Source of the DNA: Halobacillus kuroshimensis DSM 18393
GTDB taxonomy: Bacteria; Bacillota; Bacilli; Bacillales; Halobacillaceae
Assembly: GCF_000425705.1 (NCBI RefSeq)
Contig: NZ_AUDY01000009.1
Location: 186,001 to 250,000 of the forward strand
DNA length: 64,000 nt
Reading direction: 5' to 3'
Shown in pieces: positions 5,697 through 6,032 of the stretch (its first letter is position 1; each line of letters starts with the position of its first letter). Both the position numbers and the translations under genes were made by a program. A model generated the notes under the pieces. The model was not told the origin of the DNA and searched no databases. It saw only the letters and a list, made by a program, of their open reading frames with translations.

Positions 5697-5940
5697 TATC
5701 GGTCGGAGCGGTTGTTTTATCAGTCTTTTTGCGGGAATATCAGTCGAATCGCAGATATATCAGTCAAACCCGCATTATATCGGTCGAAACGGAAATATAT
5801 CGGTCAACCGCTCCCCCTCCCAGAGCACATATCAACGAAAATCCGCATATATCAATTATTCTGCGCATATATCAATGATTCTCCGCGTATATCAATGATT
5901 CCACTCATATATCAACGAATTCCACGATAGATCAACAAAC
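5697..5940. repeat. Array of 20-bp-phased imperfect repeats (TATCRGTC block then TATCAAYGA block)
   Basis: The tetramer TATC recurs at 5697, 5718, 5738, 5758, 5778 and 5798, then after one 32-bp step at 5830, 5850, 5870, 5890 and 5910, with a degenerate GATC at 5930. All other steps are 20 bp except the first (21). The first six units read TATC[AG]GTC and the last six read [TG]ATCAA[CTA], mostly TATCAACGA or TATCAATGA. The rest of each unit is poorly conserved. The array sits between a terminator and a promoter-like region, is followed by a C-rich stretch (5941-5990), and is not convincingly coding. A 20-bp period is close to two helical turns, which would place every unit on one DNA face. 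Function unknown. Confidence 0.85.
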
Positions 5941-6032
5941 CCTCATCCCGCCCGACCCACCCACCTCAATCCCACCACCCCCTCAGGTCGCATGAGCTTC
6001 TGCCCATATATGGAAAAGATATGACTAGACGA

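Follow-up and report, generated by a model that had tools for sequence, protein, structure and literature searches.

In plasmid centromeres such as ParR/parC and TubR/tubC, DNA-binding proteins occupy rows of iterated direct repeats, one molecule next to another. Among the other close counterparts are the REP-associated tyrosine transposases (RAYTs) and their REP/BIME/REPIN repeats. In the parts of the RAYT literature that we draw on, a RAYT gene is flanked by its own repeats, which also occur as non-autonomous copies between genes and whose type co-evolves with the gene; gene presence tracks the cognate repeats, and the genes are described as vertically inherited and not seen on plasmids (PMC2817692, PMC8049555). 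TAACTGA direct repeats of Beggiatoaceae, Cyanobacteria and Bacteroidetes, heptamers with one motif across species that in the Guaymas genome lie mostly just upstream of start codons, are said in the covered parts of their report to have a distribution resembling that of XisH/XisI (PMC4679880). In this report we focused on a 64,000-nucleotide stretch of the genome of Halobacillus kuroshimensis DSM 18393 (contig NZ_AUDY01000009.1, positions 186,001 to 250,000; hereafter the window), in which two blocks of a short TATC-containing motif lie in regular phase between two genes, at positions 5697-5941. We conclude, with a probability of about 0.72, that these blocks are "solo" copies, dispersed in the genome, of the array recognized by a NERD–zinc ribbon–winged helix (NERD-ZnR-wHTH) protein, a reading built on sequence comparison. 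A repeat family that occupies intergenic gaps in many Bacillaceae thereby acquires a likely partner, and a large group of NERD proteins of so far unassigned role a likely DNA target. In the literature, covered partially and through titles and the openings of abstracts, we found no link between NERD proteins and repeat arrays and no description of these arrays; one report, in the part covered, notes for Bacillus methanolicus that a NERD gene lies near upp (PMC12802215).

The first line of evidence is that arrays lie beside one particular gene family. Grouping of the 249 distinct proteins encoded next to arrays gave, as the largest family, one of 15 members from Halobacillus and six other genera, seven of these 15 representing the same locus beside glcF (glcF, yeeE and sortase, used throughout for genes flanking such sites, are presumed names). 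Its members, some 317 residues long, combine a NERD domain (PF08378) with a zinc ribbon (CxxC..CxxC) and, at the C terminus, a winged-helix-like domain; NERD scores 72.4 bits against a Pfam cut-off of 22.1, and was the only domain above cut-off in the four members scanned with Pfam. Across 22 aligned members G48-E49, Q79, D81 and E94 are invariant and K96 is present in 90% or more, the pattern that we would expect of PD-(D/E)XK nucleases, in which these residues are presumably catalytic. The C terminus of an AlphaFold2 model of the L095 member (four-sequence alignment; mean predicted local distance difference test score 86) runs helix, strand, helix, helix, strand, which in the model is winged-helix-like. 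A Foldseek search with this model gave a best E of 0.005, the weak matches including several PD-(D/E)XK nucleases and, at E 0.045, 2inb of the XisH family, with a winged-helix factor and TubR (E 0.30) lower down; the fold classes are those that we take the match titles to denote. Searching the sequences of solved structures with the protein gave nothing useful, and the PHROGs matches were to families of unknown function only. The genome of the window, coded G000 (other genomes likewise carry G codes, and loci L codes), has a single gene of the family, outside the window on the minus strand (C2:409388-410338) and between two arrays of the TATCRR dialect, as we call a given form of the motif. 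Of the 199 genomes sampled in the order, 160 have the family at E 1e-20, as do 77 of the 97 genera, and one genome may carry up to 12 matches. Full-length members were also found in one genome of another order, where the array beside the one examined, L477, is doubtful (z of 4.5 at a lag of 21), and elsewhere in the phylum nearly all matches are limited to the NERD half.

The linkage holds when NERD genes are taken irrespective of arrays and scored as positive if a periodic array at lag 20 or 21 (z≥5.5) lies within 450 bp. An array was found at 21 of 27 Halobacillus NERD-ZnR-wHTH genes, at 20 of 28 top-scoring loci outside the genus (30 loci, with G000 and Halobacillus G015 set aside) and at 18 of 20 in a second out-of-genus sample, drawn near the bottom of the list (its last 21 places, less one skipped for an internal stop). 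Pooled, the out-of-genus genes give 38/48, against 5/294 for control genes (Fisher p ~1e-35). The controls came from the window and from loci fetched for holding an array, with genes less than 1 kb from a TATC chain excluded; because only genes near TATC chains were excluded, some of the five positives may be real arrays of other dialects. No array was found at the 12 Halobacillus NERD genes with other or truncated C termini, nor at the 14 places examined with NERD-only matches elsewhere in the phylum (two frames broke early there, and one further locus was too short). The Halobacillus set started from 40 NERD neighbourhoods, of which L406 was dropped as it has no open reading frame (ORF). Its division by C terminus was set after the first array signals had been inspected, with truncated genes placed by hand (L386 and L414 as "other", L399 and L415 as "wHTH"); without these four the counts are 19/25 and 0/10. 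At z≥5, the genes of the first test (Halobacillus and top-scoring out-of-genus loci) show lags of 20 and 21 only.

The position of some of these genes also suits a different explanation, in which the arrays are the ends or attachment sites of a mobile element, the NERD protein is its homing or integrating nuclease, and solo arrays are empty sites or scars comparable to solo long terminal repeats. In G000, G016 and G018 the NERD gene lies between two same-orientation arrays and, in our own reading of the two-sided cases with both sides printed, eight of nine are in the same orientation, i.e., direct, not every gene with an array having arrays on both sides. L451 (G194, Bacillales) carries exact 110-bp array copies at 1257-1366 and 2456-2565, one on each side of the NERD gene, which looks like a recent duplication or insertion, and two unlinked G004 arrays (L258 and L260) have about 33 consecutive bases of unit sequence in common, which hints that sequence is copied from array to array. 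Against a mobile element, the G000 protein, searched at E 1e-5 against 72,556 plasmid and 50,697 phage records, matched none, the glcF-side gene occupies the same locus in eight Halobacillus genomes, and solo arrays keep their cores and spacing while the spacers diverge. We judge this explanation unlikely, and keep it in view because some genes lie between two direct arrays.

The second line of evidence for recognition arrays of the NERD-ZnR-wHTH protein is that motif and gene vary together. Home arrays, those beside a NERD gene, read for example GTTAGGGAACAAT, TTGAAAGAA, CRCACGGCCCAATCGGGGGAG or CGATAAA, among many further forms; the motif is shared among related genes and changes from one gene lineage to another, TATCRR being one such dialect (CGATAAA in gene sense). 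Among 22 Halobacillus genomes, TATCRR arrays and a NERD gene with a TATCRR-core home array occur together in 11/11 against 0/11, the latter figure resting on 22 NERD loci examined, with G012 having no NERD match and the array of G003 reading TATCCG. The home array is at 20 bp in G000, G001, G004, G010, G011, G013, G016, G018 and G021, and at 21 bp in G008 and G020. A three-unit pattern was matched in 13 of the 22 genomes, of which G009 and G017, with a single matching locus apiece, were classed as lacking arrays. The proteins encoded at the glcF-side locus show where the variation lies: G004 and G020 are 96% identical in NERD and 45-51% in the linker, ZnR and C terminus; G011 and G004 are 93% identical in NERD versus 50-58% from the linker on; and G000 and G010 are 90-94% identical through the ZnR and 60% in the C terminus. 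The adjacent home arrays differ in all three pairs, and from this we infer that the C-terminal half sets the dialect. Since many separate protein-motif pairs are at hand, the DNA-reading code of this domain and the co-evolution of protein and site are open to direct test.

This co-variation bears on the idea that another, unlinked protein of the nucleoid or topoisomerase type binds the arrays, much as gyrase acts at bacterial interspersed mosaic elements, with NERD genes adjoining for another reason. Both neighbours were called for 85 of 112 arrays of four to nine units, and the raw counts, taken without a background rate, of 27 arrays between convergent genes and five between divergent ones agree with such a binder. 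That motifs differ between NERD lineages, that home arrays differ with the NERD C termini, and that none of the 12 NERD genes with other or truncated C termini has an array at threshold all argue against it, and we hold it to be improbable.

Sites that are the same in several Halobacillus species illustrate how arrays change. At the yeeE-side site, compared in 21 genomes, arrays of five to six units with the same neighbours are present in seven, in the dialects RGYC (G000), AGYATTT (G004) and RRYYRAA-like (G001, G008, G011, G013 and G020); the site holds one unit in G010 and, in G002, a long array with 21-bp steps and a quite different motif, and no TATC chain was found in the remaining 12. 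The glcF-side site shows five dialects: AATTA (G000), RGTC (G010), AGYATTT (G004), a uniform 21-bp TATCRGTGGSTTTGG type (G020 and G008) and RRYYRAA (G001, G011 and G013). At the sortase-side site in-phase TATC cores number, by our own count, 5/5 in G004, 3/5 in G020, 4/5 in G011 and 2/5 in G001, and the home dialects differ. At the site of the window's array, G010 keeps the terminator and flanks with one unit of block 1 type and three of block 2 type, and G008 has both neighbours and no array. In G002, which lacks TATCRR arrays, a 21-bp dialect of its own adjoins the NERD gene and recurs at three further places. Two of the three are single pairs with two mismatches; the places include a gap that in other species is occupied by TATCRR arrays. 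Other orthologous arrays (L035/L227 and L037/L230) differ mostly through point changes; taken with the wholly different arrays at fixed sites, this means that arrays are either inherited or different as a whole. The initial annotation of this DNA, made from the letters alone, had named protein-level similarity conserved across the array, or absence of phasing at a homologous locus, as observations that would count against its reading. Neither refuted it: loci that keep an array keep the phasing, even with the letters replaced. Its recombination hotspot stays at the level of a suggestion, although whole units do differ between sister species, as do whole arrays at fixed sites. Upstream of the yeeE-side array (L241, L033 and orthologues) there is a very conserved stretch with a short hydrophobic ORF, which to us resembles a type I toxin with antisense RNA.

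Several observations weigh against assigning the arrays to the NERD-ZnR-wHTH protein. No array at threshold was found at 10 of 48 genes outside the genus and six of 27 inside it; L454, from the second sample, peaks at lag 30; and the truncated gene L386, counted as negative, has a more distant signal (z 5.9 at lag 21 and z 6.2 at lag 27, about 320-370 bp away). Foldseek returned no match below E 0.001. G000 has both RGTC and AATTA arrays with one protein. G004, whose yeeE-side and sortase-side arrays are in its home dialect, retains two intact arrays of the old dialect (L245 and L257) and a worn third (L244), so that dispersed arrays follow the change of C terminus in part only. In G008 and G020 the home array is of the 21-bp TATCRGTGGSTTTGG type and the solo arrays read there are RRYYRAA at 20 bp (L239-L243; L053 and L065); a solo dialect therefore need not match the present home dialect, and the solo arrays of these two genomes may, as a guess, be relics of a former protein. 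The same mismatch weakens a broader idea to which we give somewhat less than even chances: that these proteins form an order-wide class, each writing or maintaining its own helically phased chromosomal target arrays, and that an exchange of the reading half is eventually followed, at unchanged sites, by rewriting of the arrays into the new dialect, much like an arms race of binder and site.

It is very probable, to a higher degree than for the reading as a whole, that the arrays are the predicted binding sites of the NERD-ZnR-wHTH protein. Its C-terminal ZnR-wHTH half would read TATCRR and a few bases beyond it. Steps of 20-21 bp amount to roughly two turns of the helix; about six sites two turns apart lie on nearly one helix face, and we therefore propose that molecules load side by side, presumably cooperatively. 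They would form a bent or wrapped nucleoprotein complex carrying the PD-(D/E)XK-type NERD domain, a putative nuclease that would thereby be placed on the DNA. This agrees in kind with the initial annotation, which had proposed a multi-site protein-binding or DNA-bending element with helical phasing, and the NERD-ZnR-wHTH protein is our candidate for the binder. The protein would further maintain or spread its arrays within intergenic gaps, in the way of RAYTs and REPINs. Rather than a defence island, we would guess at a self-maintaining element that has been domesticated. Four proteins gave only weak PADLOC and NCBIfam matches, the PADLOC output being without cut-offs and the NCBIfam matches far below theirs (best 39.6 bits versus 460). 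The NERD domain, above its Pfam cut-off, is shared with the N termini of PglW and MAD6, to both of which similarity is weak; the ZnR-wHTH C terminus and the arrays mark the subfamily.

We see even chances that the relation between array and protein is RAYT-REPIN-like. The likeness, judged on the parts of the RAYT reports covered, lies in a gene beside repeats, scattered dependants between genes, co-variation and, on the NERD side, the lack of plasmid and phage matches. Cognate repeats are abundant where the gene is present, as the TATCRR co-occurrence illustrates, with the finer dialect mismatched in G008 and G020. There are also differences. The RAYT enzyme is a tyrosine transposase of IS200/IS605 kinship, whereas here a NERD domain is joined to a zinc ribbon and a winged helix. 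The repeats of RAYTs (REPs) are palindromes, whereas here there are about six direct, non-palindromic sites at 20-21 bp, with no inverted pair inside the array and a plus-strand RNA fold no better than that of shuffles (z +0.91). RAYT systems have more than 100 repeats against 14 arrays in this genome. In the flanking of the gene the likeness is partial: two inverted REPs flank the RAYT gene; here 38 of 48 genes have an array beside them, on one side or on both, mostly direct in two-sided cases. Compared with the ParR and TubR centromeres, which are plasmid loci, the arrays are chromosomal, present at many loci per genome and associated with a nuclease-type domain, and the G000 protein has no plasmid match, no search having been aimed at a partition partner. 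For the TAACTGA repeats, the proposed binders belong to other families and the parts covered describe no helical phasing (PMC4679880); XisH with these repeats is perhaps a second nuclease-repeat pair.

The arrays form a family in the H. kuroshimensis genome and beyond. The spaced-motif search that the initial annotation had recommended found TATCRRY-N13-TATCRRY 51 times on both strands of G000, against one match for the reversed pattern. After removal of one antisense duplicate, G000 has 14 arrays, which the chain program resolves into eight with six units, four with seven (three of these having an additional end unit without a TATC core) and two with five. Steps are 20 bp and sometimes 21, frequently at the first step. 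The arrays sit between genes, and they do so in either strand. Spacers between cores look unrelated from array to array, hence motif and spacing are what is kept. A scan of a genome collection gave at least 117 stretches, by title mostly from Bacillaceae and relatives (titles from outside Bacillales were mostly left out of the context counts, and a few remained). The strings after TATCRR vary between species (e.g., TATCGGCGA, TATCAGCGAAA, TATCAAGAAA and TATCAGAACTCA). Similar strings in other Bacillaceae, downstream of terminators, had been mentioned in the initial annotation; they do exist, and several adjoin terminators by our reading, uncounted. Our own terminator finder assigned a same-strand upstream terminator to 14 of 112 arrays but is insensitive, having put the obvious terminator of the window in the opposite-strand class, so that terminator adjacency rests on reading of loci and not on the count. 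The strand bias that had been suggested for testing is not supported, 33 arrays being antisense and 20 sense to co-directional genes; nor was any rule of replication polarity apparent from positions judged by eye. Thirteen of the 112 arrays overlap a long ORF.

Two further explanations are very improbable. Neutral minisatellites, with slippage yielding 20-bp repeats that then decay, would suit the long, nearly perfect arrays (13-41 units) of some genomes and the unit numbers that differ between sister species, but TATC and spacing persist while unit spacers have diverged, unrelated arrays of one genome share the motif, and the arrays are linked to one gene family at lags 20 and 21. An RNA element acting in the transcript, whether riboswitch-like or an antitoxin RNA of a type III toxin-antitoxin system, would suit the several home arrays that directly follow the gene, but the window has no Rfam match at gathering scores, the fold is unremarkable as stated above, and arrays occur in both orientations to neighbouring genes.

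In the window itself (Table 1), the two blocks are separated by one 32-bp step, from the unit at 5798 to that at 5830. Between 5681 and 5960 the longest TATC run at 20-bp steps is five and the pairs number eight, values that 5000 dinucleotide-preserving shuffles never reached, the run never exceeding three and the pairs never two. The regular TATC steps, two blocks and 32-bp gap of the initial annotation are thus confirmed. Its strict 20-bp phase holds except at the first step of block 1. The block 2 dialect reads TATCAAYKA here (TATCAAYGA in the initial annotation); the last core (5930) is GATC and the other cores are TATC. It had also set aside a coding role and CRISPR (clustered regularly interspaced short palindromic repeats), rightly on both counts. 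A 93-amino-acid ORF overlaps the array, but the 20-bp units cross all three frames and elsewhere the motif is in either strand. A CRISPR locus has cas genes and, between unique spacers, almost identical repeats some 23-50 bp long; here, judging on the repeats alone, the unit is 20-21 bp with a short core.

Table 1. Coordinates of the array and its neighbours in the window
Feature	Start	End	Strand	Description
Array block 1	5697	5811	+	Six units at 5697, 5718, 5738, 5758, 5778, 5798; dialect TATCRGTC; steps 21, 20, 20, 20, 20
Array block 2	5830	5941	+	Six units at 5830, 5850, 5870, 5890, 5910, 5930; dialect TATCAAYKA; steps 20
Terminator-like hairpin of upstream gene	5633	5667	+	15-nt arms, 93% complementary, T run; 30 bp before block 1
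Upstream gene	3249	5621	+	790-amino-acid ORF, neighbour only; presumed cell-wall role from the look of the sequence
Downstream gene	6133	7659	+	MurJ-like membrane protein (name presumed), neighbour only; anchor for the orthologous site

The hairpin is also kept in the sister species G010, and so is a C-rich stretch (5942-5990) directly behind block 2. In contrast to Halobacillus with its six-unit arrays, Oceanobacillus senegalensis (L081, L132, L139 and L142) has several many-unit arrays, for which the chain program gives up to 27 units. Finally, 20 stretches of viral contigs (L206-L225) match a four-unit TATCRR pattern and are, by pattern alone, candidate arrays.
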